From contig NZ_CP066779.1 of the NCBI RefSeq assembly GCF_016598535.1, positions 5,764,053 through 5,828,052 of the forward strand: a DNA stretch of 64,000 bases, written 5' to 3'. The notes beneath the pieces are model-generated. The model was not told the DNA's origin and did not search any database. It saw nothing but the letters and a program-made list of their open reading frames with translations. How positions within the stretch are numbered: the first letter of the stretch is position 1; each line of letters opens with the position of its first letter. The position numbers and the translations under genes are program-made. The DNA is from Rhodococcus sp. P-2. GTDB lineage: Bacteria > Actinomycetota > Actinomycetes > Mycobacteriales > Mycobacteriaceae. Below are positions 35,436 through 57,553 of this stretch, one piece after another.

Positions 35436-35445
35436 AACGATCGTT
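35436..35445. promoter_or_regulatory. Operator copy 1 (AACGATCGTT)
   Basis: A perfect 10-bp palindrome in the context CAAACGATCGTTCG. It lies 33 bp, about three helix turns, from copy 2, downstream of the candidate MFS promoter. Confidence 0.65.
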
Positions 35446-35457
35446 CGGCTGCGAGCC

Positions 35458-35487
35458 ATCATTGACCTAACGATCGTTAAATGTCAA
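35458..35487 (-). promoter_or_regulatory. Candidate promoter of the MFS gene with embedded operator (copy 2)
   Basis: On the minus strand TTGACA (35487-35482) and AATGAT (35463-35458) are 18 nt apart. The palindrome TAACGATCGTTA (35468-35479) fills the spacer, so a bound TetR-type repressor would block RNA polymerase directly. Confidence 0.6.
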
Positions 35488-35556
35488 TAGTCGAGAAAAG
35501 TGCACTTTTGCAGCGGATTTCTCCGGATGTGCCGTGCGATCCGGAATCTGTTGCCA

Positions 35557-35566
35557 AACGATCGTT
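35557..35566. promoter_or_regulatory. Operator copy 3 (AACGATCGTT)
   Basis: Same palindrome and same flanks (CAAACGATCGTTCG) as copy 1, 88 bp from copy 2. It may allow repressor looping or mark a second promoter. Confidence 0.6.
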
Positions 35567-35751
35567 CGCCTGAGATGATGATTCGTCAGTGATGTAGATC
35601 TCAGGAATGGGGATACCGATTCGAGCAGTGGGTGTGCGGACGCACGTCGAGGCGCGCTGGTCTCGCACATCGACGGCATTTCGTGGCTTCGGCCCTGCGG
35701 CGTTGCAGCCCTACGTGCTTTCAGCCCTTCTCGGCGGAGGTGTCGCCCAGC

Positions 35752-36339
35752 TCAGCTTGATTCGACCATCGCGGTCGCCAATGCGCAGTAGCGAGACGCG
35801 ATATCTTCCGCATTCATCGGTCCGTCGACGCGCCACCACACACAGACCTGCTGCCCCATGTTGATAATGGCGCGCACGGCATCCCGGGGAAATGGAGTGT
35901 GGAAAGTACCTTCTTCAATTCCGCGCTCGATGACGTCGCGAAACATGCTTTCCTGCTCGTCACGCAGGGTTACGACCAGACGGTGCCCCGATTCGTCCAA
36001 GCTGCGCAATTCGGTCGCTCCTACGAGGGCGTCTTCGCGCCTGGTCGTATGGAACATGACCCAAGCGCGGACGAGTGCTTGTAGTTGGTCTTTCGGATCG
36101 CCGCCGGAGCGCAGCAGTGCACTACGGGTCATGCTGTTGGCGTCGTGCAGCGCCCGAATCATGATTTCCTGAAGTATTTCCTGCTTCGATTTGAAATGGT
36201 GGTAGATGGACGCGACAGTGAGATCGGCGCCGGCGGAGATGTCTCGCATGGACGTCCCGTGATAGCCGCGCTCGTTCATGTTTCGGACAGCGGAATCGAG
36301 TATGAGTTGCCGGACAACGACAGTCTTCGCCCCACTCAT
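35752..36339 (-). CDS. TetR-family transcriptional regulator
   Basis: A 195-residue regulator. The helix-turn-helix is near residues 10-58 (AVRNMNERGYHGTSMRDISAGADLTVASIYHHFKSKQEIL), and the rest is a helical ligand-binding domain of the type seen in acyl-CoA-responsive repressors. ATG 36339 is preceded by GAGAAGGAA with good spacing and is preferred over ATG 36357. It is divergent from the crotonase gene at 36501, and a variant of the island's palindrome lies between them. It is my first candidate for the repressor that binds the nine recurring sites. Confidence 0.88.
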   Translation of the reverse strand: MSGAKTVVVRQLILDSAVRNMNERGYHGTSMRDISAGADLTVASIYHHFKSKQEILQEIMIRALHDANSMTRSALLRSGGDPKDQLQALVRAWVMFHTTRREDALVGATELRSLDESGHRLVVTLRDEQESMFRDVIERGIEEGTFHTPFPRDAVRAIINMGQQVCVWWRVDGPMNAEDIASRYCALATAMVESS

Positions 36340-36454
36340 TGTTCGGTTCCTTCTCATTTCCTCGGTGCCTGCGTCCTGCCCAGCTTAGAGCCGAACAGTC
36401 GCGGCACACACCTGATGGAAAGAAACCGCCTTGAACTGCGTATATGGGCAGAAC

Positions 36455-36480: not shown

Positions 36481-36500
36481 CCAAGAGAAAAGAGGGACCT

Positions 36501-37388
36501 GTGGAAAACATATCGATGAGTATCGAAGACGGTATCGCCGTGATCACCCTTGATCGACCGGACAAGCTGAACGCATTCACCACGACGATGGAAAACGAGC
36601 TCATCGAAGCGTTCGACGCCACCGACGCGAACGACGCTGTGCGTGCGGTGATCCTGACGGGAGCGGGCCGTGCGTTCTGCGCGGGGGCAGATCTGTCCTC
36701 GGGAGCAGAGACGTTCTCCGAATGGAGCGCCGAGTCGAACGGAAATGGCGCGAACGGTGACGATTCACGTCGGGACGGCGTCGATCTACGTCGGGACGGT
36801 GGCGGACGCGTCGTCCTGCGGATGTTCGATTCATTGAAGCCGATCATTGCGGCCATCAACGGACCGGCCGTCGGCGTGGGCATCACCATGACTCTTGCGG
36901 CCGACTTTCGCTTGGCCGCCGACGACGCCAGGATGGGTTTCGTCTTCAATCGGCGAGGACTCGTGCCCGAGTCGTGTTCGTCGTGGTTGCTGCCGAAACT
37001 GGTTCCGCTCCAGCGAGCCCTCGACTGGATCTACTCCGGACGGATCTTCACTGCCGCGGAAGCATTTTCGGCCGGGTTGGTCTACCGACTGCATTCGCGC
37101 GAAGATCTTCTCGGGGAGGCGACGGCGCTCGCTCACAGCCTGACCCGTGACACCGCGCCGGTATCGGTTGCCCTGTCGCGTCAGATGGTCTGGCGCATGC
37201 TGGGAGTCGAACACCCCATGGTCGCGCATCGCGTCGAGAGCATCGGAATCAATGCTCGCGGTGCTCAGGCTGACGTTCGTGAAGGTATCGCGGCGTTTCT
37301 GGAAAAGCGAGAGGCGGTATTCCCCGACCGTTGCAGTGACGCGATGCCGGATCTGTTCTCGTCCCATCTCCCACGCCCCCGGTGGTGA
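36501..37388 (+). CDS. Enoyl-CoA hydratase/isomerase family protein
   Basis: A 295-residue crotonase-fold enzyme. The oxyanion-hole segments are GRAFCAGADLSSG and NGPAVGVGITMTLAADFRLA. The segment FVFNRRGLVPESCSSWLLPKLV keeps a Glu at the second catalytic position. A polar insertion of about 20 residues (NGNGANGDDSRRDGVDLRRDGG) lies before the helix that contacts CoA. GTG 36501 has AGAGGGA upstream. It is divergent from the TetR gene, so it is probably one of its direct targets. The reaction is likely hydration or isomerisation of an acyl-CoA. Confidence 0.87.
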   Translation: MENISMSIEDGIAVITLDRPDKLNAFTTTMENELIEAFDATDANDAVRAVILTGAGRAFCAGADLSSGAETFSEWSAESNGNGANGDDSRRDGVDLRRDGGGRVVLRMFDSLKPIIAAINGPAVGVGITMTLAADFRLAADDARMGFVFNRRGLVPESCSSWLLPKLVPLQRALDWIYSGRIFTAAEAFSAGLVYRLHSREDLLGEATALAHSLTRDTAPVSVALSRQMVWRMLGVEHPMVAHRVESIGINARGAQADVREGIAAFLEKREAVFPDRCSDAMPDLFSSHLPRPRW

Positions 37389-37430
37389 GCCGCTACGACC
37401 TTCGAACCGTCGGCGTCGTGGCTCATGCGG

Positions 37431-38435
37431 TCAACCGCCGCGGCGGGTAAGTTCCCTCCGCTTCTTCAGGGGCGTTGTGGAGAACCAACGCTTACAGCTT
37501 CGAGTGAGGGTGCTCGGTTCGGAATAGCCGAGTTGGCGTGACACTTCGGAGAGGGACACGTCTCTGTTCGAGAGAAGACTGCGAGCGAGTTCGCGTCGTG
37601 AATCGTCGACTAGTGATTCGAACGCCTTGCCTTCCAACGCCAATCGTCTCTGCAGTGTTCGTGGGTGCAGCATCATCAAAGTCGCGACTTGCTTCAGCGT
37701 GGCTGCACCCGCAGGCAGGGAACGCACGATGACAGCCGACACCGCGTCGTGGAACGCCACATCCGGATCTCGACCTGCCATGAAACGCACGGCTAAGTCG
37801 TAGGCCATCGGATCCACCCGGGGGAGGTGGCGATGCATGACTCCGCGCGGAAAGGTCAACAGGTTCCGATCCGAGCTGAACTCGACAGAACAACCGAAAA
37901 ACTCTACGTACCTGCGCAGTTCGGAGATACGTGGATGTTGAAACGAGATGTGCGTCGGATGGAAGTCCGGGCCCGCCATCATCCGGAAAGTCTGAAGCGT
38001 CACGCCCATCGCCAGTTCCACGACGTGGGACCGATACGGAAGTCGATGCAGCACGGTATCGATCCCGTAGGACACCTCGGTGTCGCCGACTGTCAGATCT
38101 ACCGCCAACGCCGGGCTGTACACGTGCGCGTATCGGGCGACGTCGTGCAATGCATCTCCGATTGTCTCGGCACTGCGGGCCGCGATGGCGACCGGACCGA
38201 GAATGTCCGGGTCCTGTTTGCCGGCGAGTCTGAGTGCGAAGTCCGGCGCCTCCAACTCATCCGCACAGAGTCCGAGCAGTGTGGACAAGGCACTGAACGG
38301 CAAGAAGTGGTCGTACGCGCCGATGACGGCCGGATCGACGCCCACACGGTCGAGGAATTCGTACGGATCTCCGCCGAGTTCGGAGATCAACTCGGGCAGT
38401 CGTGTCAGCGACGAGGCGCTGATCAGATCGGCCAT
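37431..38435 (-). CDS. AraC-family transcriptional regulator
   Basis: A 334-residue regulator. Residues 20-200 form the Arabinose_bd-type ligand domain found in OruR/ArgR-like AraC proteins, and residues 235-330 hold two helix-turn-helix units (LKQVATLMMLHPRTLQRRLALEGKAFESLVD; VSLSEVSRQLGYSEPSTLTRSCKRWF). Proteins of this branch usually activate adjacent catabolic genes. It is divergent from the aldehyde dehydrogenase gene at 38550, with candidate binding repeats in between. Confidence 0.9.
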   Translation of the reverse strand: MADLISASSLTRLPELISELGGDPYEFLDRVGVDPAVIGAYDHFLPFSALSTLLGLCADELEAPDFALRLAGKQDPDILGPVAIAARSAETIGDALHDVARYAHVYSPALAVDLTVGDTEVSYGIDTVLHRLPYRSHVVELAMGVTLQTFRMMAGPDFHPTHISFQHPRISELRRYVEFFGCSVEFSSDRNLLTFPRGVMHRHLPRVDPMAYDLAVRFMAGRDPDVAFHDAVSAVIVRSLPAGAATLKQVATLMMLHPRTLQRRLALEGKAFESLVDDSRRELARSLLSNRDVSLSEVSRQLGYSEPSTLTRSCKRWFSTTPLKKRRELTRRGG

Positions 38436-38443
38436 GTGTCGAA

Positions 38444-38472
38444 ATGTAAATAAATTGGCGCATCATGTCAAT
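38444..38472. promoter_or_regulatory. AraC-type direct repeats
   Basis: ATGTAAAT (38444-38451) and ATGTCAAT (38465-38472) are direct repeats exactly 21 bp apart, two helix turns, in the 114-nt gap between the AraC gene and the aldehyde dehydrogenase gene. This is the classical half-site spacing of AraC-family activators. An overlapping AAATTG-N11-CAATTT inverted repeat is also present. Confidence 0.5.
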
Positions 38473-38549
38473 TTTCTCGTCTGTTGGGCAGTGATGATCA
38501 ACACAGGTTGGCTGGTTCAACGTCGAGCGCCATCCCTGGAGGAGCCACA

Positions 38550-40004
38550 ATGACAACACTCACCGACCGCACTGCACTGTTCATCGACGGACTGTGGAGA
38601 GCGCCGGACACTTCCGAAATCATCCGAGTCGTATCACCTTTCACGGAGCAACAGATAGGCTCGTTCCCCGCATCCGTATCGACGGACGTCGACGCAGCTG
38701 TATCAGCGGCTCGAAAAGCATTGCGACGGAACGACTGGTCCGATCTTTCCCCTGTCGAACGTGCGCGTGTCATCCGCAGGTTCGCCGACGAACTCGAGAA
38801 ACGATCCGAGGACCGCGCGGCGGCGGTCACTCACCAGAACGGCATGCCCATCGAGCTCGCCCGTTTCGCCGAGGGGGCCGCGCCCGTCCAACTTTTGCGC
38901 TATTACGCAGGCCTCGCCGAGTCGATGCCTACCGAAGAACGACGGGCCAGCCAACCGATGCCAGGTACGACAATCGTGCGACGCGAGCCGATCGGTGTCG
39001 TTGCTGCCATCGCGCCCTGGAACTTCCCGGCTGTGCTTTCGATGTTCAAGATCGCCCCGGCTCTTGCTGCGGGATGCACCGTCGTTCTGAAACCCTCTCC
39101 CGAAACCACCTTGGACTCCTACATATTGGCCGAGGCCGCCATTGCGGCAGAACTCCCCGAGGGTGTCATCAACATCGTGACTGGCGGACCGGAGATCGGT
39201 CAGTATCTCGTGTCGCATCCCGGGATCGACAAGGTCGCGTTCACGGGATCCACTGCGGCCGGTCGACACATCGGTACGGTGTGCGGCGGAATGCTTCGCC
39301 CCGTTACTTTGGAATTGGGTGGCAAGTCGGCGGCCCTGGTCCTCGACGACGCGGATGTCGAGGAGACGGTAACCGGTCTGGCAACTGCATCCCTGCTCAA
39401 CAGTGGGCAGACGTGTTATATGTCGACTCGAATCTTGGTTCCCCGCAGCCGTAGTCGGACGTACGTCGACGCCATCACCGCGATGGCGGAGGGTCTGCAG
39501 GTCGGCGATCCGATGGAACCGTCGACGTTCGTCGGCCCGTTGGTGAGCGCGAGGCAACAGGACCGTGTGCTGTCCTTGATCGACCAGGGACGCTCGGAAG
39601 GCGGAACTGTCACCACGGGTGGCGGACGCCCCGCCGACCTCGACACCGGATTCTTCGTGCAGCCCACGGTGTTCGCCGATGTCGACAACGGCAGCACCAT
39701 CGCACGGCAGGAAGTATTCGGGCCGGTGCTGTCAGTCATTTCATACGACGACGTCGATGAGGCTGTCGCGCTTGCCAACAACTCCGAGTACGGCCTCGGT
39801 GGGACTGTATGGACCTCCGACGAGGAACGCGGTATCGCAATTGCTCGACGCGTCGAGACAGGCTCGTTCGGTGTCAACACCTTCAACCTCGACTGGGGCT
39901 CACCGTTCGGTGGCGTCAAAGCCAGCGGCTTGGGTCGTGAACTCGGTCCCGAAGGGCTTGCGGCGTACCAGCAACTCAAATCCATTTTCCTCGCATCCTC
40001 GTAA
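38550..40004 (+). CDS. NAD(P)-dependent aldehyde dehydrogenase, copy A
   Basis: A 484-residue aldehyde dehydrogenase oxidising an aldehyde to the acid. The cofactor region is IAPWNFPAVLSMFKIAPALAAGCTVVLKPSPET and FTGSTAAGRH. The general-base Glu is in LELGGKSAA and the catalytic Cys in NSGQTCYMST. The ATG has GGAGGAG upstream. It is divergent from an AraC regulator and starts an operon with the isomerase-like and SDR genes. It is clearly paralogous to the aldehyde dehydrogenase at 50172-51611. Confidence 0.93.
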   Translation: MTTLTDRTALFIDGLWRAPDTSEIIRVVSPFTEQQIGSFPASVSTDVDAAVSAARKALRRNDWSDLSPVERARVIRRFADELEKRSEDRAAAVTHQNGMPIELARFAEGAAPVQLLRYYAGLAESMPTEERRASQPMPGTTIVRREPIGVVAAIAPWNFPAVLSMFKIAPALAAGCTVVLKPSPETTLDSYILAEAAIAAELPEGVINIVTGGPEIGQYLVSHPGIDKVAFTGSTAAGRHIGTVCGGMLRPVTLELGGKSAALVLDDADVEETVTGLATASLLNSGQTCYMSTRILVPRSRSRTYVDAITAMAEGLQVGDPMEPSTFVGPLVSARQQDRVLSLIDQGRSEGGTVTTGGGRPADLDTGFFVQPTVFADVDNGSTIARQEVFGPVLSVISYDDVDEAVALANNSEYGLGGTVWTSDEERGIAIARRVETGSFGVNTFNLDWGSPFGGVKASGLGRELGPEGLAAYQQLKSIFLASS

Positions 40005-40017
40005 GAATCGAGCCACC

Positions 40018-40809
40018 ATGTCCGACGCAGGACTCGCCGGCGCTCGTGCGCTGGCAGAAAATACCGTGAAGATAGCCGAGCAATTCGGGACCACCGAATG
40101 GGAAGCGGACACTGCGTGCCACGGTTGGCGCGTCCACGACCTCATCGGTCACATGGCGTTCTTCTTCAACTTCATCGCCGACCCGGATCTGGTGTTCCCG
40201 TCGAACCCCAGTGGAAAGTCCGAGCGGCTCAACGACGCTGCCGTCCGCGAGCGTGCCGATCTACCGCACGAGCAGATCCTGGACTACTACCGGGAGCAAT
40301 CCGAAGCGGGGCTCGCGACGTTGGCCGCGCTGCAGACAGAGGAGCTTCGCAACAACACACTCGAGATGCTCGACCTCGGGACTTATCGCCTGCATCAGCT
40401 CAGTGACGCGGTGTCGTTCGACCATCTCGTCCATTTGACGTCGGATCTTCTGGCGCCGTTCGGACCGATTCCTCACGGTGAGATCGACGTGGCGGCCGCA
40501 GTCGATCCGGCGATCGACTGGATGGTTGCTGGGCTCCCGCAGATGTGCGGCGAAGCTGTCGCCACCGCGTTGACATCGCCTGTGGCACTGCGCCTCAACG
40601 GCGCCACCGAGCGCACTTTCGTCATCTCTCATGGCGATGGGGGAGTGACCGTCACCGAATCTGACGACGTGCCGGAGAACGTCGCGACCACCCAGGCCAC
40701 CGAATTTCTGCGGTGGGGGACCACCCGATCTGCATGGCGGTCTGCCGTCGAGGTCTCCGGCGACCGCAGGACCGTCGCCGCGGTCCTCGATGCCATCGAC
40801 ATCGTCTGA
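40018..40809 (+). CDS. Mycothiol-dependent maleylpyruvate isomerase-like (DinB-fold) protein
   Basis: A 263-residue protein with an MDMPI N-terminal / DinB-2 helical bundle. Metal ligands are suggested by His45 (DLIGHMA) and by Asp135 and His139 in SFDHLVHLTSDLL, where family members have Glu-x3-His. A C-terminal domain of about 100 residues follows. Such enzymes use mycothiol in isomerisation or detoxification. It is 13 nt after the aldehyde dehydrogenase stop, in one operon with that gene and the following SDR. A role with a reactive aldehyde or enone is possible. Confidence 0.78.
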   Translation: MSDAGLAGARALAENTVKIAEQFGTTEWEADTACHGWRVHDLIGHMAFFFNFIADPDLVFPSNPSGKSERLNDAAVRERADLPHEQILDYYREQSEAGLATLAALQTEELRNNTLEMLDLGTYRLHQLSDAVSFDHLVHLTSDLLAPFGPIPHGEIDVAAAVDPAIDWMVAGLPQMCGEAVATALTSPVALRLNGATERTFVISHGDGGVTVTESDDVPENVATTQATEFLRWGTTRSAWRSAVEVSGDRRTVAAVLDAIDIV

Positions 40810-40849
40810 CCCACACCGAATCCGAAAACCAGAACACGAGGAAACAGTT

Positions 40850-41686
40850 ATGTCTCAGTACTTGCAGGACAAGGTCATTCTCATCACCGGTGCAGGGGGT
40901 GGGTTCGGTCAACTCATCGCCGAGAAGGTGGCTGCGCAGGGCGCCAAAGTCGTCGGCGTGGACATCAACGAGGCGGGCCTGAAGACTGTGTTCGACGGTA
41001 TCGCGGCCGCGGGATTCACCGGCACCTACAAGGTTGCCGACGTCACCGACATGGATCAGGTCATCGCTGCGGCGCAGCACGGCATTTCGGAGTACGGGGC
41101 GCTCGACGTACTCGTCAACAATGCGGGCGTCATGCCTCTCGCATATTTCGCCGATCACGAACGTGCGTGGCAGAAGTGGCACAAGGCAATCGACATCAAT
41201 ATCAAGGGCGTCGTCAACGGAATCTCTGCGGTATACGACCAGATGATCGAGCAGGGTCGCGGTCAAGTCGTCAACATCTCGTCGATCTTCGGAAACGCCG
41301 GCGTCGACGGTTCCGGCGTCTACAGCGCAACTAAGGCTGCAGTCACCACGATCTCGGATTCACTGCGAATCGAAGCCAAGGGCAAGATCAAGGTGACGAC
41401 TGTCAAGCCCACGGGTGTGACAGGAACGAACTTGGCGAGCTGGATCGTCAACGAGAACGCGATCCTCGGTCTCACCGGTCAACGTGCGGGTACCTACATG
41501 GAGAACGTCGGGCACCTGGCCGACGGCACCCTCAGCCCCGGGCAGAAGGATGTCGACTCCATCGAATACTGGCTGATCAAGCCCGACGACCTGGCCGACG
41601 CTGTCGTTCACATCATCGATCAACCGTGGGGTATCAGCATCAGTGACATAACCGTCCGCGCCAGCGGCGAGGATTACCTGTACTGA
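40850..41686 (+). CDS. Short-chain dehydrogenase/reductase
   Basis: A 278-residue classical SDR. The cofactor motif is ITGAGGGFGQLIAEKVAAQG, followed by NNAGVMPL and the catalytic SSIFGN...YSATK. The C-terminal 60 residues are longer than usual and include MENVGHLADGTLSPGQKD. It should oxidise or reduce an alcohol/ketone with NAD(P). The ATG has GAGGAAA upstream. It is the third gene of the plus-strand operon beginning at 38550. Confidence 0.88.
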   Translation: MSQYLQDKVILITGAGGGFGQLIAEKVAAQGAKVVGVDINEAGLKTVFDGIAAAGFTGTYKVADVTDMDQVIAAAQHGISEYGALDVLVNNAGVMPLAYFADHERAWQKWHKAIDINIKGVVNGISAVYDQMIEQGRGQVVNISSIFGNAGVDGSGVYSATKAAVTTISDSLRIEAKGKIKVTTVKPTGVTGTNLASWIVNENAILGLTGQRAGTYMENVGHLADGTLSPGQKDVDSIEYWLIKPDDLADAVVHIIDQPWGISISDITVRASGEDYLY

Positions 41687-41885: not shown

Positions 41886-42854
41886 ATGAAAGCAGTCCAC
41901 TTGGTGGAGGCGACGGGGCCCGAAGGTTTGTCGTTGGTCGATGTCGACGAACCTGTCGATCCCGCACGGGTGGTAGTTGATTTGCACACCGCCGGCGTGA
42001 GTTTCCCTGATCTTCTCCAGACCACGGGCGGCTACCAAATGGTGCGCGAACTACCGTGCGTACCAGGGATTGAAGGTGCCGGTACCGTTCGGAGCGCGCC
42101 GCCAGGGTCAGGCTTCGTGCCCGGGCGGCGCGTGGCCGTGCTGACGACCGGGGAAGGCTCGTGGCAGCAGACCGTTGCGGTCGAGCCGTCCAATGTCTTC
42201 GCTCTTCCTGATGTGGTCTCGCTCTCGGCCGGTTCGGGATTTCTCCTGAATTATCTGACCGCGCACTTCGCCCTCGACGAACGTGCGCGATACCGTGCCG
42301 GCGAGACCGTCCTGATTCACGGCGCGGCCGGTGGGTTGGGTACTGCCGCGTTGCATGTCGCGTCTGCGCTCGGTCTGGAGACGGTCGCTGTCGTGAGTAC
42401 GGGCGAGAAGGAGAAAATCGCCGCGGAGTCCGGGGCAACGCACGTCGTGTCGGTCGACGGGTGGAAGGAAGGCGTCCAACGGATTACGAATGGGCGCGGT
42501 GTCGACATCATTCTCGATCCGGTCGGTGGTGACCGCTTCACCGACAGCCTGCGCAGCCTTGCGCCGAACGGTCGCCTGGTCGTTTTGGGATTCACCGGCG
42601 GTGATATTCCCACGGTCAAGGTGAATCGACTTCTCCTGAAGAATATTTCGGTGACGGGTGCAGGATGGGGTGAATATCTGAAAACCGATCCCCGGTATCT
42701 ACAGCGTCAATGGCAGGAGCTCTATCCCCTGCTCCGGTCGGGAGCTCTGAGGGTGCCTGAGCCCACCCTCTACCCCTTGGCGCGTGCTGCCGATGCACTG
42801 ACGTCGTTGAGCGAGCGCACGGCGGTAGGAAAAGTCGCGCTTTCTCTCGAATGA
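41886..42854 (+). CDS. NADPH:quinone oxidoreductase-like MDR enzyme
   Basis: A 322-residue zinc-independent medium-chain reductase. The N-terminal GroES-like domain (TAGVSFPDLLQTTGGY; PGIEGAGTV) and the Rossmann motif (HGAAGGLGTAALHVASALG) are typical of QOR/enoyl reductases, which reduce quinones or enoyl-CoA-like double bonds with NADPH. The ATG has CCGAGGAG upstream. It leads the operon MDR, ligase, racemase, crotonase and is preceded by a perfect operator palindrome. Confidence 0.9.
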   Translation: MKAVHLVEATGPEGLSLVDVDEPVDPARVVVDLHTAGVSFPDLLQTTGGYQMVRELPCVPGIEGAGTVRSAPPGSGFVPGRRVAVLTTGEGSWQQTVAVEPSNVFALPDVVSLSAGSGFLLNYLTAHFALDERARYRAGETVLIHGAAGGLGTAALHVASALGLETVAVVSTGEKEKIAAESGATHVVSVDGWKEGVQRITNGRGVDIILDPVGGDRFTDSLRSLAPNGRLVVLGFTGGDIPTVKVNRLLLKNISVTGAGWGEYLKTDPRYLQRQWQELYPLLRSGALRVPEPTLYPLARAADALTSLSERTAVGKVALSLE

Positions 42855-42911
42855 TCTCCACACGAACAACTTTGTGAACAAGACCTCAGCGAACGAACCT
42901 TGGAGTGAACC

Positions 42912-44459: not shown

Positions 44460-45550
44460 GCGGCCCGTTGCACGGTGTTCGAGTGCTGGAACTCGCGGGG
44501 TTGGGTCCGGGGCCGCACGCTGCGATGATGCTTGCAGATCTCGGAGCGGACGTTGTTCGAGTCGAGCGTCCGTCTGGTGGACTCGAGATCTCGCCACGAG
44601 AGCAGGACCAACTTTTGCGTGGGAGACGGTCGGTGGAAGCCGACCTCAAGACCGAGTCAGGCCGAGAGTTGGTGAGGGCCCTCGTCTCGAAAGCCGATGT
44701 GTTCCTGGAAGGTTTTCGGCCCGGCGTGACCGAGCGGCTGGGTTTCGGCCCCGACGTGTGCACCGAACTCAACAGCCGGCTGATCTACGCACGTATGACG
44801 GGATGGGGTCAAGACGGCCCACTCGCGCAGCGGGCGGGACACGACATCACTTACCTGGCGCTGACCGGAGTCCTGCACGCTATCGGTCCGGCCGAGAAAC
44901 CCACGGTTCCGCTGAACCTCGTCGGAGACTTCGGCGGTGGCTCCATGTTCTTGATCCTCGGAATCGTCTCTGCGTTGTACGAGCGAGAGCGTTCGGGCAC
45001 AGGACAAGTGGTCGATGCCGCAATTGTCGACGGAACTTCGGTGTTGGCGCAGATGATGTGGTCGTTGCGAGGGAGCGGACAGTGGAGTGACTCACGTGCA
45101 ACCAACCTCCTGGACGGTTCTACGCCGTTCTACGACACATACGAATGTTCGGACGGCAAGTTCGTAGCAGTCGGTGCCCTCGAACCGCAGTTCTACGCGG
45201 CGCTCCTCCAAGGCATGGATATCGCGCCGGAATCGTTGCCCGATCAGATGGATCGAAGTGGCTGGCCCACAATCCGAGAACGGTTCACAGAGGCGTTCTC
45301 GTCGCGCACGCGAGACGCCTGGGCAGCGCTGTTCGAATCGACGGACGCTTGTGTTGCTCCTGTCCTGAGCCCCGCCGAAGCCGCGTTGCACCCGCATCTT
45401 GCCCAGCGGGGAACTCTTGTCGAAGCCGACGGAATAGTGCAGGCGGCACCCGCGCCGCGGTTCTCCCGTTCCAGGACTGTGCAGCCGTCAGGTGCCCGGC
45501 CACCCGGGGTCGATACCACCGCCGTGACGAAGGATTGGCTGGACGACTGA
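44456..45550 (+). CDS. Alpha-methylacyl-CoA racemase (CaiB/BaiF family)
   Basis: A 364-residue family III CoA-transferase-fold protein. The residues that define the racemase branch in M. tuberculosis MCR (His126, Asp156, Glu241) align with His129 (AGHDITYL), Asp158 (LVGDFGGGS) and Glu243 (VGALEPQFY). This makes a racemase more likely than a CoA-transferase. It interconverts 2R and 2S methylacyl-CoA so that acyl-CoA dehydrogenase can act. It is coupled by ATGA to an acyl-CoA ligase and followed by a crotonase. Confidence 0.9.
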
Positions 45551-45607
45551 GTGGCAGATCAACTTTTGTAGCACAACTCGATCGAGTCTGACTGACAAGG
45601 AATTTCA

Positions 45608-47614: not shown

Positions 47615-47630
47615 GGGTTGCTCTCCTGTC

Positions 47631-50053
<2,423 letters not shown>

Positions 50054-50171: not shown

Positions 50172-51611
50172 TCAGGCCGTGGTGAAGATCGATTTGGTCT
50201 GGAAGTAGGCGGCCAGGCCTTCCGGTCCGAGCTCGCGACCGATCCCGCTCGCCTTGGTGCCTCCGAACGGTGCTCCGAAATCGAGTGTGTAGCCGTTGAT
50301 CCCGAACGAACCGGTATCGACTGAGCGGGCTATTTCCAACCCGCGATCGAAGTCGGCAGTCCACACGGTTCCACCGAGGCCGTACTCGGAATCGTTGGCG
50401 ATTGCGATGGCCTGTACCTCGTCGGTGTATGGAATGACAGAGAGGACGGGGCCGAAGATCTCTTCGGTTGCAATCGTGTGGTTCGCGGAGACGTTACCGA
50501 AAACGGTTGGCTCCAGGAACCATCCGCGCTTGAGTGTGCGCGGTCGTGATCCGCCGGTCGTGATCCGTGCGCCTTCCGCAGTGCCCGTGGCGATGAAGGA
50601 CTCGACACGTTCGCGCTGCCCGGCGCTCACGAGAGGGCCGATGAAGGTGGTGGGGTCCAACGAGTCGCCCACCGGTAGCGACTCGACCATTGCGGTGACG
50701 GCATCGAGCACCTCCTCGTAGCGTCCTTCGGGCGCGAGAATTCTTGTCGAGGCGTAGCAGGTCTGGCCGGTGTTGATCAACGATGCCGTCGCCAAACCTG
50801 CCATCGTCGCGTCGAGGTCCGCATCGTCGAGAATGACTGCGGCGGACTTGCCGCCGAGCTCCAGCGATACCGGTCGCAGTAGTTGCCCGCAGGTTGCTCC
50901 GATGTGTCGCCCTGCAGGTGTGGAGCCGGTGAAGGCGACCTTGTGCACGCCCGGATGAGCGACGAGGTACTTGCCGATGTCGGGTCCTCCGGTGACGATG
51001 TTGAGAACACCGGCAGGAAGGTCGGCCTCCATTGCGGCCTCGGCCAGGACGAACGCGTCGAGCACGGTCTCGGGCGACGGCTTCAGTACAACGGTGCATC
51101 CTGATGCGAGCGCGGGGGCGATTTTCATCATTGCGAGAAGCGAGGGGAAGTTCCACGGTGCAATCGCGGCGACAACACCGATCGGCTCTTTCCGAACAAT
51201 GGTGGTTCCCGTTCCGGCCAGCGCGTTACGGTGTTCTTCGAGCTCGGTCGTGCGGGCAAGCGCGGCGTAATAGCTCAAAAGCCCTGAAGGTCCTTGTCCT
51301 TCGGCAACAGTGGAGATCGAGATCGGCATTCCGTTCTGCTGGCTGACCAATCGAGCTGTGAGATCCGCGCGACGCCCCAGGGCCGCGGCAAATCGATCCA
51401 AGGCGTCGGCTCGGTCGGCAGGCGCGAGTCGCGACCACGTCCGGAAGGCTCGGCCCGCCGCCGCGACGGCAGTATCGACGTCGTTGGGTGCGCTGTCCGG
51501 CACACTGCCGATCTTCTCCTCTGTGCTGGCCGAGTGCACCGAGATGGCGTCCGGCGTCGTCGGTGATTGCCAGGTTCCGTCGATGTAAAGGGCGGAGTGA
51601 GTCAGAGTCAT
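50172..51611 (-). CDS. NAD(P)-dependent aldehyde dehydrogenase, copy B
   Basis: A 479-residue aldehyde dehydrogenase, strongly similar to copy A at 38550. The cofactor region is IAPWNFPSLLAMMKIAPALASGCTVVLKPSPET and FTGSTPAGRH, the base Glu is in LELGGKSAA, and the catalytic Cys in NTGQTCYAST. The upstream gap to the IclR gene holds an operator variant at 51689-51702. Two copies under the same operator family suggest either two aldehyde intermediates or different inducers. Confidence 0.93.
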   Translation of the reverse strand: MTLTHSALYIDGTWQSPTTPDAISVHSASTEEKIGSVPDSAPNDVDTAVAAAGRAFRTWSRLAPADRADALDRFAAALGRRADLTARLVSQQNGMPISISTVAEGQGPSGLLSYYAALARTTELEEHRNALAGTGTTIVRKEPIGVVAAIAPWNFPSLLAMMKIAPALASGCTVVLKPSPETVLDAFVLAEAAMEADLPAGVLNIVTGGPDIGKYLVAHPGVHKVAFTGSTPAGRHIGATCGQLLRPVSLELGGKSAAVILDDADLDATMAGLATASLINTGQTCYASTRILAPEGRYEEVLDAVTAMVESLPVGDSLDPTTFIGPLVSAGQRERVESFIATGTAEGARITTGGSRPRTLKRGWFLEPTVFGNVSANHTIATEEIFGPVLSVIPYTDEVQAIAIANDSEYGLGGTVWTADFDRGLEIARSVDTGSFGINGYTLDFGAPFGGTKASGIGRELGPEGLAAYFQTKSIFTTA

Positions 51612-51723: not shown

Positions 51724-52659
51724 CTATGTTGCTCCGTCTGCGGATGTCAATGGTCGAGGTGTTCGGCCGTGCATGAGAGTGGTGACCCGATCGGCGGCTT
51801 CCCGCACGAGTTTGCCCAGTTCGGCGATCCGCTCCCCGGTCAGTGGTGACGGGGCATCGACCAGGCAGAGGATCAGTGCCGGTGTCGAGTCCTGGGCGAA
51901 GGCGACGGCATTGACGGACAGCAGTTGATAATTGGCGTCGAGGTCGAGTGTTCCGACCGCGACATCCGCAGACAGAAGACGTCGTGCTTCTCTCAGTGCG
52001 AGTGCGGCCCTCTGGCCGCCGACTCCCGGCCCGCGCATCTCGGTGACGGCGTCGGAAATTGAACGTTCTTGTTGGCGAAGGCATTCCACGGCGAAACCGC
52101 GCTCTCGAATGGCCATGAGGATCGGCTCGTACTCCGACCGTAGAAGTGTGGCCTCCGTGTCCAATGCTTCCTTGCCGAGGAGAAACCATTCGTGAAGGTC
52201 GTCCTCGTCGAACCATGCGGCAAGGCCTGCCCCCAGTGGAGGTGCCATCAGTACATTGTCGCCGATGCGCAAGCCGAGAGTTCCGCTGCGTTTGGAGATC
52301 GGTTGAATTGCCTCGGCGACAACGAGGTCGGCGCCGGATCGGATGAATCCGAGACAGGCCAGTTCGGATGTGTCGGCCAGCTCTTGCATGACGGTACGGG
52401 AAAGATCGACGACATCGATTGCGCGGGAGGCGGCTTGGCCGATGGGAACTAGTGCCGGGCCGAGTTGGTAGGTCTTGCGGATCGGGTGACGTACGAGCCA
52501 GCCGGCCTCGGTGAGAGCGACGACCATGGGGTAGCAGGTTGCCTTTGCGACGCCGAGGTGTCGTGCGATGTCGGCGAGGCTCCGCCCCGTCGTGGGGTCG
52601 GATGCCAGCAGTTCGGTCAACATGACGATTCGATCGGTTTGGGGGGAATTTCGTGCCAT
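51724..52659 (-). CDS. IclR-family transcriptional regulator
   Basis: A 311-residue regulator. The N-terminal winged helix (LTELLASDPTTGRSLADIARHLGVAKATCYPMVVALTEAGWLVRH) is followed by a GAF-like effector domain (about residues 85-260). Start choice is open: ATG 52659 is used, and GTG 52677 is in frame upstream, neither with a clear ribosome site. It is divergent from the ThDP-enzyme operon, and an operator variant lies between them. IclR proteins usually sense a pathway intermediate, so this may be a second control layer on the lyase operon. Confidence 0.85.
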   Translation of the reverse strand: MARNSPQTDRIVMLTELLASDPTTGRSLADIARHLGVAKATCYPMVVALTEAGWLVRHPIRKTYQLGPALVPIGQAASRAIDVVDLSRTVMQELADTSELACLGFIRSGADLVVAEAIQPISKRSGTLGLRIGDNVLMAPPLGAGLAAWFDEDDLHEWFLLGKEALDTEATLLRSEYEPILMAIRERGFAVECLRQQERSISDAVTEMRGPGVGGQRAALALREARRLLSADVAVGTLDLDANYQLLSVNAVAFAQDSTPALILCLVDAPSPLTGERIAELGKLVREAADRVTTLMHGRTPRPLTSADGAT

Positions 52660-52717
52660 GTGTTCGCATAATGCCACTCTGGCGTCGCACTGTGACCCAC
52701 GATACAGTGAAATGACT

Positions 52718-52758: not shown

Positions 52759-54471
52759 ATGATTGTCAACGGTGGCGAACTACTGGCCAGGGCACTAGCC
52801 GAAGCGGGCACTACCGAGGTCTTCACCCTCCATGGAGGGCATTTGGATGCTTTCCTCGTAGCTTGTCGGCGACATGGCATTCGGCTCACCGACACCCGAC
52901 ACGAAGCCACCGCGGGACACGCTGCGGATGCATACGCGCGGGTGACGGGCAATTACGGCGTTTGTGTGGTCACCTCCGGCCCAGGCTTCACCAATGTCTA
53001 CACCGCGCTGACCAATGCACTCCTCGATCGCACTCCGACTGTCTTCGTCGTCGGTGCTCCGCCGATGCGCGAGACCGAGACGAATCCGCTTCAGGGTGGT
53101 TTCGATCAGATTGCCGCGGCCGTTCCAGTGACCAAGTGGGCATATCGCATCACCGATCCGGCGCGCGTTCCCGAGATAGTTGCTCTGGCAATTCGTAAGG
53201 CGACGACCGGAATTCCGGGGCCCGTGTTGCTGGAAGTGCCGATCGACGTGATGTTCGGTGAAGCCGACGAGGACACCGTGAGGTTTCCGGTGAACTACAC
53301 CCTGAGTGCGAGGTCGGGTCCGACTGCCGCGGCGGTCGAGGCCGCTCTCGATCTGCTCGGTGAAGCGACGAACCCCGCTATTGTGATCGGCGGCGGCGTC
53401 ACTTTCTCCCACGCGAGCGAGGCACTTGTGGCGTTCGCGGAAACGGTGGACGTGCCGGTGTTCTACCCCGGGAAGTCCGATGGAGCAGTACCCGCAAGCC
53501 ATCGACTCGCCGGCGGCGGGTTGCTGGCAATCGGTTCATTGCCTGCCCTCGGGCAGCCGACGCCCGACGTGGTGTTCGTTGTCGGGGCCCGCGCCGGAAT
53601 GTTCACCGGCGGACGCACCAGTTTGTTCCCCGGTGCGCGGTTGGTTCAGATCGACGTCGACGCGTCCGAAATCGGACGTATGCAGGATGTGGACGTTCCG
53701 ATACTTGCCGACTGTCGAGAAGCACTAATCGGGTTGAAAACTGCTGCTGAGCAACGTCAATGGCCCGATTGGAGCGCCTGGGTCGATGCCGCCACCAGTG
53801 CGAAACACGCGCACCGGCATGGTTTCGAGGACCAAGCGACGGAAAGCGGTAAGGCGCATCCGTACTTTGCAGCGCGCGCGATCGTCGAAGCCTGCCCGCC
53901 TGGTACGACTTTCGTGATGGACGGTGCCGAGGCCCCGTCGTGGGGTGAATTCTTCACGACCACCGAAGTAGTTGGTGGTGTCTTGAGGCTCGGCTACCTC
54001 GGGTGTCTGGGTGTCGGGCCGGGTTTCGCAATCGGCGCACATCGAGCACGACCGGAATCACCGGTCGTACTCATTACGGGTGACGGCGCCGCAGGATTCC
54101 ACATCCAGGAATTCGACACGATGGCCCGTCACGGAATACCGGTTGTGACAGTGATATTCAACAATGCAGTGTGGGGGATGTCGATCCACGGCCAGGAAGC
54201 GGTGTACGGGGACGAAGGAATTGTCGTGTCCGAACTCGCAGACAGTGCATACGAGAAAGTTGCCGAGGCCTTTGGTGGATATGGTGAGCGTGTGAAGGAC
54301 GTCGCCTCCATTGCCGACGCTATGAAACGTGCGTTCGACGCGGGGGTTCCTGCATGTATCAACGTCGAGGTGGACCCGCACGTGGTCCACCCCATCACGA
54401 CGATGATGCTGGGCGACGTCACGAGTACGGACGAAATCGTTGTCCCGTACTACGAGAACATTCCTCGCTGA
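52759..54471 (+). CDS. ThDP-dependent enzyme (acetolactate synthase / 2-hydroxyacyl-CoA lyase type)
   Basis: A 570-residue thiamine diphosphate enzyme with the three usual domains. The N-terminal PYR domain has the ylide-activating Glu49 in DTRHEATAGHAADAYARVTG, then comes a central Rossmann-like domain, then a PP domain with the GDG...NN metal/ThDP motif (ITGDGAAGFH to VIFNNAVWG). The family includes acetolactate synthase, oxalyl-CoA decarboxylase, benzoylformate decarboxylase and 2-hydroxyacyl-CoA lyase, and sequence alone does not settle which. Among CoA ligases and aldehyde dehydrogenases, a lyase giving an aldehyde plus formyl-CoA is attractive. It starts the operon ThDP enzyme, SDR, ligase. 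Confidence 0.85.
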   Translation: MIVNGGELLARALAEAGTTEVFTLHGGHLDAFLVACRRHGIRLTDTRHEATAGHAADAYARVTGNYGVCVVTSGPGFTNVYTALTNALLDRTPTVFVVGAPPMRETETNPLQGGFDQIAAAVPVTKWAYRITDPARVPEIVALAIRKATTGIPGPVLLEVPIDVMFGEADEDTVRFPVNYTLSARSGPTAAAVEAALDLLGEATNPAIVIGGGVTFSHASEALVAFAETVDVPVFYPGKSDGAVPASHRLAGGGLLAIGSLPALGQPTPDVVFVVGARAGMFTGGRTSLFPGARLVQIDVDASEIGRMQDVDVPILADCREALIGLKTAAEQRQWPDWSAWVDAATSAKHAHRHGFEDQATESGKAHPYFAARAIVEACPPGTTFVMDGAEAPSWGEFFTTTEVVGGVLRLGYLGCLGVGPGFAIGAHRARPESPVVLITGDGAAGFHIQEFDTMARHGIPVVTVIFNNAVWGMSIHGQEAVYGDEGIVVSELADSAYEKVAEAFGGYGERVKDVASIADAMKRAFDAGVPACINVEVDPHVVHPITTMMLGDVTSTDEIVVPYYENIPR

Positions 54472-55250
54472 TGCCCGGGCGAATGGAAGGTGCGGTAGCC
54501 GTCGTCATCGGCGGAGCCTCCGGTATCGGTTGGGCAACAGCGCAATTGCTGGCCGCTGGAGGGGTGATCGTCGTGATCGGTGACATCGACGTCGAAGGCG
54601 GGCGGAAACGCGCCGTAGAACTCGGTGGGCGAGCTGAAGCAGTCCGGGTCGACGTCGTCGACGAAGAATCGGTCAAGGCGATATTCGAGGGGGCGAAGGC
54701 GCAGCACGGTCGGTTGGATATCGCGGTCAATTGTGCAGGGGTGAATCTGCCGGGCTTCATCACGGATTTGGAGGCGCAAACTTGGCAGCGAACCGTTGAC
54801 ATCTGTCTCACCGGAGGTTTCTTCGTGATCAAGCATGCTGCGCGTGCCATGACTGCCGGTGGATCGATCGTGTCGATCACCTCGCTGAACGCACGACAGG
54901 CAGCAGCAGGTTTTGCGGGATACTGCTCCGCGAAAGCGGGCCTCGCCATGCTCACCGAGGTGGCGGCACTCGAACTCGGAGACCGGGGGATACGCGTCAA
55001 CGCGGTTTCGCCAGGTCTTGTCGAAACGCCTCTTGTCGAGGGTCTCACCGGTGTTCCGGCTATTCAGGCGGACTTCACGGAGAACACTCCGCTCGGCCGT
55101 AACGGGTTGCCTCGCGACGTTGCCGAAGCGGTGTTCTTCCTCGCCTCCGATGCTTCTTCGTGGATCACGGGTGAGGTTCTCGATGTCAACGGCGGTGCTC
55201 ACTTGCGTCGGTACCCGGACGTGATGAAACACATCGAGGCGATGCAATAG
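54471..55250 (+). CDS. Short-chain dehydrogenase/reductase
   Basis: A 259-residue classical SDR. The cofactor motif is VIGGASGIGWATAQLLAAGG. An NCAG variant (VNCAGVNLPGF) replaces NNAG, and the catalytic motif is SITSLNA...YCSAKAG. ATG 54471 overlaps the stop of the ThDP-enzyme gene (TGATG), so the two are coupled; ATG 54483 is an alternative. It probably interconverts a hydroxyl and keto group on the pathway intermediate. Confidence 0.88.
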   Translation: MPGRMEGAVAVVIGGASGIGWATAQLLAAGGVIVVIGDIDVEGGRKRAVELGGRAEAVRVDVVDEESVKAIFEGAKAQHGRLDIAVNCAGVNLPGFITDLEAQTWQRTVDICLTGGFFVIKHAARAMTAGGSIVSITSLNARQAAAGFAGYCSAKAGLAMLTEVAALELGDRGIRVNAVSPGLVETPLVEGLTGVPAIQADFTENTPLGRNGLPRDVAEAVFFLASDASSWITGEVLDVNGGAHLRRYPDVMKHIEAMQ

Positions 55251-55341
55251 CTCGTCGAGAGTTCGTCGGTTAGACAGCGCTCGGGCGTCGTGCACACGCC
55301 TGGGCGGGAAGTTACGTCCAATCCAGAAGGGGCTTTTCACG

Positions 55342-56880
55342 ATGTGCTCACAATATCGCCTTGGCGATGAGTCTCGACGCCACGCTGCTGCACGACCGGA
55401 CGCCCTCGCGTTGACAGGTCGAGACGGGTCGATGACGTTTGCCGAGCTCGACCTCCGTACCAGTCGGCTGGCCAACGTTCTTCTCGACCTGGGTTGTAGC
55501 TCGGGAACCAGGGTGGCCGTGGTGGACAGAAGCTCGACTCAAGTCGTCGAGATCGTACTTGCGGCAGCAAAGATCGGGGCAGTGGCAATCCCGATCAATT
55601 GGCGGTTGTCCGGCGCCGAGGTTGCCGAGGTGCTCGCCGACGCGGACGCTCGGGTGTTGTTCTTCCACAGTGAATTCGAGGGCGTGGTGTCGGCGGTGCA
55701 GGCATCGGGAGTCACGAAGCTGCGCGTTGTGAAGATCGACGGTTCCGAGGAGTTCGACTACGAAGCTCGATCGGCAGGCGCAAGTTCGGTCGATCCGGGA
55801 TGGCGCGGAAGCCTGGACGACGTTGTACTGCAACTGTATACATCCGGAACCACGGCAAAACCCAAAGGCGTTCTCACGTCCAACAGGAACCTGGAAGCAT
55901 GCACGCGAACCGGTGGGCCATGGGGATTCGACGAATCCTCGGTCAGCTTGTGTGCGATGCCACTGTTCCACGTCGGCGGATTGGGTTGGGTACTCGTGGG
56001 ACTCGCGAATGGAGCCCACAACGTCGTTCTCCCGGAATTCACACCTGACGGTCTGTTGGAAGTAATGGAAGGGATGAGTATCACCAATACCTTCCTCGTG
56101 CCTTCCGTCATCGGGATGCTGGTCGACGTGCCAGGTGCGCGAGAGCGCAATTTCGCAACTCTCCGATCCATCGCCTACGGTTCTTCCCCGATCACACCGT
56201 CGGTCTTGAAGCGAGCTCTCGAGACGTTCCGCACGCCCCTGTTCCAGGTCTACGGGCTGACCGAAACGCATGGAGCAGTAACGCAACTCGATTCTTGTGA
56301 CCATGCAGTGGACGGCGAGAACGTCGGACTGCTGCGCTCGGTGGGAAAACCGTACCCCTGGGTGGAACTGAAGGTGATGTCACCGGAAGGCGAGGAAGTT
56401 GCGATCGGCGAGGCCGGCGAGATCTACGTCAGGTCTCCTCAAACGACCGAAGGCTACTACCGACGTCCGGAAGAGACTGCCGCTGCGATAGATGCCGACG
56501 GGTGGTTCCATACCGGCGACGTGGGACGGGTCGACAGCGAGGGCTACGTCTACATCACCGATCGGATGAAGGACATGATCATCACGGGTGGAGAGAACGT
56601 CTATCCCATCGAAGTCGAATCGGTCATCGCCGATTATCCGGGAGTATCCCAAGTCGCCGTCATCGGAGTGGAGGATCCATTGTGGGGCGAGGCGGTCAAA
56701 GCCGTCGTAGTTGCTGCTGCAGGACATCAACTCGATACCGACGTGATTTCAGGTTTCGTCCGAAGCCGACTTGCCGGTTACAAGTGCCCCAAGTCCATCG
56801 AGATAGTCACCGAACTCCCGTTGGGCGCTACGGGCAAGATCCTCAAGCGTGAACTTCGGGCGCGATACACGACGGTGTGA
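55342..56880 (+). CDS. Acyl-CoA synthetase (FadD-like AMP-binding enzyme)
   Basis: A 512-residue ANL ligase with LYTSGTTAKPKGVLTSN (P-loop), VYGLTETHGAVTQ, YITDRMKDMIITGGENVYPIEVE (hinge) and TGKILKRELR (catalytic Lys). It should form acyl-CoA from a free acid, for example one regenerated by the aldehyde dehydrogenases. The ATG has AGAAGGGG upstream. It is the third gene of the lyase operon and ends 3 nt from the convergent TetR gene. Confidence 0.92.
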   Translation: MCSQYRLGDESRRHAAARPDALALTGRDGSMTFAELDLRTSRLANVLLDLGCSSGTRVAVVDRSSTQVVEIVLAAAKIGAVAIPINWRLSGAEVAEVLADADARVLFFHSEFEGVVSAVQASGVTKLRVVKIDGSEEFDYEARSAGASSVDPGWRGSLDDVVLQLYTSGTTAKPKGVLTSNRNLEACTRTGGPWGFDESSVSLCAMPLFHVGGLGWVLVGLANGAHNVVLPEFTPDGLLEVMEGMSITNTFLVPSVIGMLVDVPGARERNFATLRSIAYGSSPITPSVLKRALETFRTPLFQVYGLTETHGAVTQLDSCDHAVDGENVGLLRSVGKPYPWVELKVMSPEGEEVAIGEAGEIYVRSPQTTEGYYRRPEETAAAIDADGWFHTGDVGRVDSEGYVYITDRMKDMIITGGENVYPIEVESVIADYPGVSQVAVIGVEDPLWGEAVKAVVVAAAGHQLDTDVISGFVRSRLAGYKCPKSIEIVTELPLGATGKILKRELRARYTTV

Positions 56881-56883
56881 GAA

Positions 56884-57525
56884 TCAACGTGCACGCTTGC
56901 GGCTGGGTTTGCATCCAACCGTGTTCAGTGCGATCACGGCGTACTTCTGAGCCACCTCTGCCGGGGTGAGTTCTCCCTCCGCGTGATACCAACGCGGAAT
57001 CGACTGGCACATCGCGAGCAGCGCGCGCGTGGTCTCGGGTATGTCCGCCACCGAGAAGACGCCTCGTTCCGCGCCTTCCGTCACGATGCCCAGTACCAGT
57101 TCCTCGACACCCTTTCGTACGACGCGGTATCGCTGGCGGTTTTCGGGGCTGAGGTACCGCACCTCGCCCTCGAGAGCCGCAAGGCGTGACCGGGTGGTCA
57201 TGCGAAGGACGATCGCTTCGACGACATTGGTGAGCTGTTGCCGGGGGTCGTCTCCACCGTCGGCGTAGGCGGTGTGTGCTCGTGCGAGCACGTCGCTGGT
57301 CGAAACTTCCAGGAGAGCAAGAAGAATCCCTTCCTTGCTCTGGTGGTGGTAGTAGAGAGCGGGAATAGTGACACCGACACGACGCGCGATCTCGCGTACC
57401 GACGTTCCGTGGAATCCGTTGTCGTAGAATCCTTCGAGGGCGGCTTCCAGGATAGGAGTCAGCTCGAGCGGCTCGATCCGTCGCCAACTGGCTGTGGCGT
57501 CCTTCGCCGAATCTTTCGTGGCCAT
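56884..57525 (-). CDS. TetR-family transcriptional regulator
   Basis: A 213-residue TetR protein. The helix-turn-helix is near residues 27-75 (ALEGFYDNGFHGTSVREIARRVGVTIPALYYHHQSKEGIL), and the C-terminal domain resembles KstR2-like acyl-CoA-responsive repressors. The start ATG has AGGGG upstream. It lies 58 nt after the Mce-associated gene on the same strand, so it may be the last gene of the mce operon, but a palindrome at 57540-57553 suggests its own promoter. It is the second candidate for the island's operator-binding repressor. Confidence 0.88.
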   Translation of the reverse strand: MATKDSAKDATASWRRIEPLELTPILEAALEGFYDNGFHGTSVREIARRVGVTIPALYYHHQSKEGILLALLEVSTSDVLARAHTAYADGGDDPRQQLTNVVEAIVLRMTTRSRLAALEGEVRYLSPENRQRYRVVRKGVEELVLGIVTEGAERGVFSVADIPETTRALLAMCQSIPRWYHAEGELTPAEVAQKYAVIALNTVGCKPSRKRAR

Positions 57526-57539
57526 ACAGGGTCCCCTAG

Positions 57540-57553
57540 CTATCGCTCGATAA
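57540..57553. promoter_or_regulatory. Operator-like palindrome upstream of the second TetR gene
   Basis: CTATCGCTCGATAA contains TATCG-CT-CGATA, a palindrome with a 2-nt centre, 14 nt before the TetR start. It resembles the variant at 36461-36474 and fits the loose form TTANCGANCGNTAA, so it may belong to the same operator family or be a private autoregulatory site. Confidence 0.45.

Follow-up and report, generated by a model that had tools for sequence, protein, structure and literature searches.

Described repressors and the locus in Rhodococcus sp. P-2

PaaR (TTHA0973) from Thermus thermophilus is a local TetR-type repressor of a coenzyme A (CoA) ligase and hydratase pathway; PMC6651687 quotes its operator from Sakamoto et al. 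as 5′-CNAACGNNCGTTNG-3′. In the same paper, REPSA selection for PaaR yielded AACnAACGTTnGTT instead of CNAACGNNCGTTNG. Here we analysed a catabolic island of Rhodococcus sp. P-2 (G000 in the genome comparisons), located at 34–57 kb of the window, i.e. the whole stretch of 64,000 bases spanning positions 5,764,053–5,828,052 of the one-contig genome (6,340,135 bases). The island carries two TetR genes, tetR1 and tetR2, and nine 16-bp sites that fall into two operator classes with a common core. We estimate with a probability of about 0.72 that the island is a two-repressor regulon, in which TetR2, probably together with TetR2b encoded at 3.79 Mb, would act on class B and TetR1 on class A.

Both class A sites (35433 and 35554 in window numbering) contain a full match to CNAACGNNCGTTNG, and the role proposed for TetR1 in the island is like that of PaaR. 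We likened TetR1 to PaaR by the operator and not by the protein sequence. The linkage of PaaR to the phenylacetyl-CoA epoxidase genes (paaABC) has no counterpart at the island: between 33.8 and 58.2 kb, the only part of the genome covered by this search, none of 20 Pfam queries (two of them non-genes) gave such a domain. Among the literature matches listed (titles and abstracts), class A was resembled only in PaaR-related work. Searches for AACGATCGTT, AGCGATCGTT, AGCGATCGCT, ACGATCGCT, TetR together with CGATCGTT, and degenerate forms gave no class B TetR operator among the matches listed, with subscription papers mostly outside their scope.

A described system close to class B in layout is that of BkaR (Rv2506/MSMEG_4718) from mycobacteria, which has a 16-bp palindrome, is autoregulated and lies next to acyl-CoA genes (PMC3920632). 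The two operators share the frame TTA-N8-TAA. They differ in that the BkaR core in that paper reads GTTA(N)T(N4)A(N)TAAC, whereas class B has C and G in place of the inner T and A, and C...G instead of G...C at the outermost positions. All seven class B sites of the window have the inner C and G, and we therefore rejected the assignment of TetR2 to the BkaR regulon. Table 1 of the same paper also lists, between Rv0575c and Rv0576, two copies of the motif to which BkaR failed to bind; they contain TTAGCGCTCACTAA, which is near class B, and may belong to a TetR2-like protein.

TetR1 and TetR2 each match PF00440 and PF17932 above the gathering scores, and are 29% identical to each other. Their best solved relative by sequence is structure 3vpr (95.0 bits for TetR1 and 74.1 bits for TetR2), a distant one that we take to be PfmR, a TetR regulator of the Thermus thermophilus type. 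Solved chains of KstR2, the TetR-family regulator of steroid ring catabolism, match TetR1 with 69.8 bits and TetR2 with 43.0 bits. The KstR2 operator, AnCAAGnnCTTGnT, is unlike either class.

Nine putative operators of two classes

The nine sites, each with its score under one of two weight matrices (A and B) built from sites in other genomes and applied to the window, are as follows.

35433–35448: putative class A operator CCAAACGATCGTTCGG, upstream of the MFS gene; matrix A 27.8 bits; counterparts beside tetR1 homologues
35466–35481: putative class B operator CCTAACGATCGTTAAA, centre of the A-B-A array before MFS; matrix B 23.1 bits
35554–35569: putative class A operator CCAAACGATCGTTCGC, before MFS; matrix A 22.3 bits
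36460–36475: putative class B operator ATTATCGTTCGCTAAT, gap between tetR1 and the crotonase gene ECH1, just 5′ of the likely GTG start at 36501; matrix B 12.0 bits
41809–41824: putative class B operator CTTAACGATCGTTAAG, perfect palindrome, before MDR; matrix B 26.4 bits
50100–50115: putative class B operator CTTAACGATCGTTAAG, perfect palindrome, before the HpaB-like operon; matrix B 26.4 bits
51688–51703: putative class B operator CTTAGCGATCGTTATA, gap between iclR and ALDH2 (aldehyde dehydrogenase B); matrix B 23.0 bits
52716–52731: putative class B operator CTTAGCGATCGTTAAT, gap between iclR and the ThDP operon; matrix B 22.4 bits
57539–57554: putative class B operator GCTATCGCTCGATAAT, before tetR2; matrix B 12.3 bits

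A preliminary description of the window, made from its letters, had reported nine intergenic sites, two of them perfect 16-bp palindromes, and none in the first 33 kb. All nine are present upstream of genes, 41809 and 50100 are indeed perfect palindromes, and the only near-match in the first 33 kb, at 8863, falls within an open reading frame (ORF). That description read the sites as one operator. We found instead that they follow two consensus sequences, CCRAACGATCGTTYGG for class A (two sites) and CTTANCGNTCGNTAAG for class B (seven sites), which share the 10-bp core AACGATCGTT and diverge chiefly at the three outer base pairs. The two class A sites (CCAAACGATCGTTCG[GC]) scored only 11.1 and 6.3 bits, respectively, under matrix B, and the seven class B sites scored no more than 12.3 bits under matrix A (57539 was outside the 16 best, i.e. 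below 6.9 bits).

The exact core AACGATCGTT occurs at seven places in the whole genome, five of them in the window, whereas the reversed control gave none; the remaining two copies lie within predicted ORFs. With at most one mismatch, the window contains eight copies, compared to a mean of 3.1 in shuffled sequences, of which 2 in 100 reached eight. The longer CTTARCGATCGTTAAG was found at three places genome-wide with at most one mismatch, all in the window. At two mismatches there were two extra places in the window and one elsewhere, and at three mismatches 12 additional places, none in the window. These genome-wide counts came from pattern searches, and the control for the matrices was a set of twenty 20-kb stretches of the same genome (400 kb), in which the best scores were 17.5 bits (matrix A) and 11.7 bits (matrix B). 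The seven best matrix B scores and the two best matrix A scores of the window are exactly the nine sites; each beats the best control score, and no other window position does. The nine sites are far from chance.

The class B centres lie ~20–85 bp upstream of the start codons of MDR, HpaB-like, ALDH2, iclR, ThDP and tetR2, and of the likely start of ECH1, and a dimer bound at such a position would block the promoter. Regarding ECH1, homology begins only at residue 21, which makes GTG 36501 the likelier start and places 36460 outside the gene. The sites before MFS are 272–394 bp upstream of that gene. Counterparts are also found in related genomes, with class B-like sites before MDR in relatives, CTTAGCGATCGCTATA between HpaB and iclR in G175 (the nearest relative), a site in the place of 51688 in G123, and sites in the place of 52716 in both G175 and G123.

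Co-occurrence of the operator classes with TetR clades

Since the training sites of the matrices had been chosen for resemblance, we searched the flanks of TetR genes for palindromic motifs from random starts. The search used expectation-maximisation tolerating imperfect palindromes and covered other genomes only, with G000 and G175 left out. The flanks of TetR1 homologues (14 loci after thinning 15) returned C[GA]AACGATCGTT[CT]G with a score of 73.4 vs 17.7–23.0 in five shuffles, and those of TetR2 orthologues (25 loci after thinning 28) returned nTAnCGATCGnTAn with 119.2 vs 22.9–35.4; the shuffles had fewer starts (25 vs 60) and iterations (25 vs 40) than the real runs. A third TetR clade, ~40% identical to TetR1 (12 loci after thinning 13), gave CGAnCGATCGnTCG, again well above five shuffles. 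Counting exact dyads recovered AACGATCGTT in 6 of 15 TetR1 loci (at most 3 in 20 shuffles) and no motif at the TetR2 loci, the latter because TetR2 sites are imperfect palindromes. The recognition helices are LTVASIYHHF in TetR1, VT[VI]PALYYHH in TetR2 and TetR2b, and LSVPGLYHHY in the third clade. Most loci of the third clade (L041–L052) have an operator-like palindrome nearby, CCGANCGATCGNTCGG, a further relative of class A.

In a census of 201 genomes of the family, made with the class B pattern at no more than one mismatch, class B was present in 48 of the 51 genomes that encode a member of the TetR2/TetR2b clade (best E up to 5e-50), or 46 of 49 without G000 and G175, amounting to 116 sites vs 6 in the reversed control. 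The remaining 150 genomes had 66 sites in 46 of them, vs 59 in the control. Four genomes of the window's genus (G083, G110, G145 and G155), taken as TetR2b-type by identity alone (best TetR2 match 49–52%), carry 12 class B sites, with 1 in the control. Class B stands no more than 25 bp upstream of 15 of 28 tetR2 orthologues, and four more sites lie within ORFs that were called too long. The gene caller used for the relatives was home-made and misses some genes, e.g. the TetR1 of the window.

Eighteen genomes have a TetR1 homologue of ~50% identity or more; class A was found in 15 of them, and in 9 of the 18 a strong site (at least 20 bits) lies within ~420 bp of that homologue. Four genomes have a TetR1 homologue (51–57% identical) without a TetR2-clade protein. 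In G088, class A is 44 bp beyond TetR1, and G151, G161 and G116 have a strong class A site 1.8–1.9 kb upstream of TetR1 with a weaker second one 87–88 bp off (21.4, 15.8 and 15.8 bits). Class A is mostly located 3′ of tetR1 and not at its own promoter. As read from the sequence, class B palindromes stand before tetR2 and between tetR1 and ECH1. Seven genomes, including that of the window, have these two genes in divergent order, and each of them carries a class B-like site (12–21 bits) in the latter position; none was found within 330 bp on the 5′ side of the other eleven TetR1 homologues.

We also considered the HpaB gene as the carrier of class B and rejected it, since only 2 of the 23 HpaB-relative loci examined (of 41; other genera) have class B at 13/16 or better, L137 (R. 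globerulus) and L154; the HpaB gene as such does not bring class B along. Three others (L142, L148 and L149) have the class-A-like CCGAGCGATCG[TC]TCGG.

The importer array and sites outside the window

The three sites before the MFS importer form an A-B-A array. In the window its steps measure 88 and 33 bp; G175 has 86 and 33 bp, and G108 and G095 both have 88 and 31 bp. In these four genomes the site in the middle resembles class B (23, 12, 13 and 13 bits for the window, G175, G108 and G095, respectively), whereas G186 has class A there. G108 and G095 each have one weak outer site (11 and 16 bits, respectively). Between array and MFS, G175 has ~2.3 kb extra with two ORFs, one of them acyl-CoA dehydrogenase-like, that is missing in the window (35169–35751). 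Other relatives also have two genes there.

A strong class B site (22.7 bits) is located at genome position 3,796,238, ~2 Mb from the island, before an operon of a thiolase, an SDR and TetR2b. The thiolase is 82–90% identical (13 loci) and the SDR 88–92% identical (14 loci) to the counterparts in the relatives' operon. Of the 13 thiolase loci, 9 have this operon adjoining MDR, and class B-like sites lie between the two. The TetR2b helix, GVTVPALYYHH, is also that of all five aligned TetR2 orthologues, and the TetR2 of the window has GVTIPALYYHH. A class III lanthionine synthetase gene adjoins the thiolase-SDR-TetR2b operon (L132, 14926–17544). The second class B-like site outside the window, at 2,895,881 (18.5 bits; L136, 9881–9896), is isolated; it precedes an SDR gene, and the ORF that flanks it on the opposite side had no NCBIfam family match.

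Alternative explanations

The loose patterns showed little or no genome-wide excess: CTTARCGATCGTTAAG with up to three mismatches occurs 14 times forward and 15 times reverse (16 and 21 for the reversed control), and TWANCGNNCGNTWA at nine places (four in the window) vs seven. The preliminary description had expected a higher site density here than in the rest of the genome, which holds for the close matches, enriched and clustered here, and not for the loose ones; we therefore relied on close matches and clustering and did not use the loose counts as evidence. Several observations weigh against the two-repressor regulon. The sites 36460 and 57539 are weak, exceeding the best control score by less than 1 bit, and we took their support from the position of the sites in relatives instead. 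Both classes have the same core, which makes cross-binding between them possible, and the sites used to train matrix A included some of the class A sites near TetR1. The census counts ignore relatedness, and the clade cut-off was set after the scores were seen. Of the 183 genomes that lack a TetR1 of the required identity, 69 nevertheless contain class A, part of it beside the third clade. Where such a TetR1 is present, class A can be distant from it (1.8–1.9 kb in three genomes, ~3 kb in G123 and ~6 kb in G185), and no strong class A was found near the homologues of G195, G023, G174 and G172; G023 has two somewhere in its genome. The tetR1/ECH1 sites of G185, G195, G023 and G027 are only 3–6 bits better as B than as A. 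Finally, TetR2-like genes on plasmids (54–55% identical) had no class B above 9.5 bits in 24.6 kb; these genes follow mce operons on Rhodococcus pLPS8 and pDK3 (L198, L199) and their helix is VTMPTLYYYH.

A single regulator, TetR2 or TetR2b, could act on all nine sites via the shared AACGATCGTT, the outer bases tuning the affinity. This is consistent with the common core, with the two sites 33 bp apart before MFS, and with the scores of 41809 and 50100 under matrix A (12.3 bits) and of 35433 under matrix B. We nevertheless consider it unlikely, because the unseeded motifs separate by TetR clade, and because class A lies near TetR1 in the four genomes that lack a TetR2-clade protein, in which the scanned TetR1 flanks and stretches contain no class B of at least 12 bits. 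It is just as doubtful that TetR2b is the main class B repressor, with TetR2 mainly controlling itself or the mce operon. The recognition helices are one conservative change apart, and the four genomes with only TetR2b-type proteins carry class B, which would fit such an arrangement; the class B sites directly upstream of over half of the tetR2 orthologues, the location of tetR2 within the island and the lack of class B above 9.5 bits in the 20 kb from the right end of the window argue for TetR2.

Control of some or all sites by the IclR-type protein would explain why sites lie on both sides of iclR, yet G196, G186, G176 and G045 have class B and TetR2-clade genes without a match to an IclR homologue in the fetched stretches, making this proposal very improbable. 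That the sites are chance matches or a non-regulatory repeat is harder still to believe: loose patterns hardly rise above the reversed controls genome-wide, but the clustering, the positions upstream of genes, the conservation at orthologous promoters and the 400-kb control all contradict it.

Gene content of the island

The genes that the two-repressor regulon would comprise, and their neighbours, are listed below.

33807–35168, minus strand: MFS importer, metabolite/H+ symporter-like; proposed target of class A (and B)
35752–36357, minus strand: TetR1 (TetR_N and TetR_C_24); proposed class A reader
36501–37388, plus strand: enoyl-CoA hydratase ECH1 (ORF as listed begins at 36444)
37431–41686: AraC regulator and ALDH1-MDMPI-SDR1 operon; no site found
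41886–46384, plus strand: MDR-FadD4like-CaiB-ECH2 operon; proposed class B target
46463–50053, minus strand: HpaB-like, NMO and FadE operon; proposed class B target
50172–51611, minus strand: aldehyde dehydrogenase ALDH2; proposed class B target
51724–52677, minus strand: IclR-type regulator, divergent from ThDP
52759–56880, plus strand: ThDP enzyme, SDR2 and FadD; proposed class B target
56884–57525, minus strand: TetR2 (TetR_N and TetR_C_24); proposed class B reader

The encoded proteins include CoA ligases, a CaiB-type transferase, enoyl-CoA hydratases, an acyl-CoA dehydrogenase, aldehyde dehydrogenases and a ThDP enzyme, a set that, judged by sequence, is one for CoA-thioester catabolism. 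The nearest solved chain of the ThDP enzyme is benzaldehyde lyase (375.9 bits). The HpaB-like protein (48647–50053) matched 4-hydroxybutyryl-CoA dehydratase/vinylacetyl-CoA isomerase chains with 195.5 and 191.9 bits, vs 147.2 bits for 4-hydroxyphenylacetate hydroxylase. The dehydratase has cysteines that presumably ligate its cluster; they are not conserved in the HpaB-like alignment, so the protein is probably neither the dehydratase/isomerase nor the hydroxylase. On the other side of tetR2, an mce-type operon (57584–64000) lies on the same strand and runs toward it.

The preliminary description placed the whole island under one regulator, a scope that proved too wide and, at the same time, too narrow. 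Neither the pattern nor the matrix scan found a site at the AraC gene and the ALDH1-MDMPI-SDR1 operon (37431–41686), and class B is present at the thiolase operon 2 Mb off. The AraC/ALDH1 block is also absent between ECH1 and MDR in G175, which has a divergent hydratase-like ORF there instead. Given the lack of a site and the absence from G175, the block may be a cassette inserted later between ECH1 and MDR.

Proposed regulation

Starting from the observed sites, their enrichment and conservation, and the co-occurrence of each class with a TetR clade, the model predicts binding, repression, a cascade and an effector. TetR2, and probably also TetR2b, would bind class B (CTTANCGNTCGNTAAG) as a dimer, and occupancy would block MDR, HpaB-like, ALDH2, iclR/ThDP, tetR1/ECH1, the tetR2 promoter itself and the thiolase-SDR-TetR2b operon. 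TetR1 would bind class A (CCRAACGATCGTTYGG) and block the operon that lies downstream of tetR1, in the window that of the MFS importer, at whose A-B-A array both repressors may act. The idea of local TetR-type control is supported, with tetR2 as the leading candidate for seven of the nine sites, whereas that of one operator with one regulator is not, since two of the three MFS sites are class A and tied to tetR1 orthologues by motif discovery elsewhere. Both TetR genes named as candidates in the preliminary description remain as proposed readers. With class A tied to tetR1 and class B to tetR2 orthologues, they are not rivals for one site, and the second candidate for class B is TetR2b.

The class B site of tetR1 would let TetR2 control the amount of TetR1 as well. 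It is possible, although we propose it only tentatively, that the circuit is interlocked: TetR2/TetR2b would set tetR1 expression, TetR1 would gate import, and both would meet at the conserved A-B-A array, giving ordered or cooperative induction with limited cross-talk. We infer from known relatives that a CoA thioester arising in the pathway would be the effector that releases the repressors. KstR2 and FadR are precedents for effectors of the CoA-thioester type. The effector of PaaR is phenylacetyl-CoA, according to the title of a reference in PMC6651687.

The island would work like a standard local TetR regulon, and what is unusual is the presence of two TetRs, and of operators with one shared core, in one island. 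The model makes a previously undescribed catabolic island a regulon open to testing: it names two regulators and two operators, specifies the genes involved, and would link an operon 2 Mb away to the same pathway. It would also provide a handle on the pathway substrate. For the TetR family, the island would be a natural case of specificity divergence, in which a 10-bp core is common to the operators that keep the related TetRs apart.

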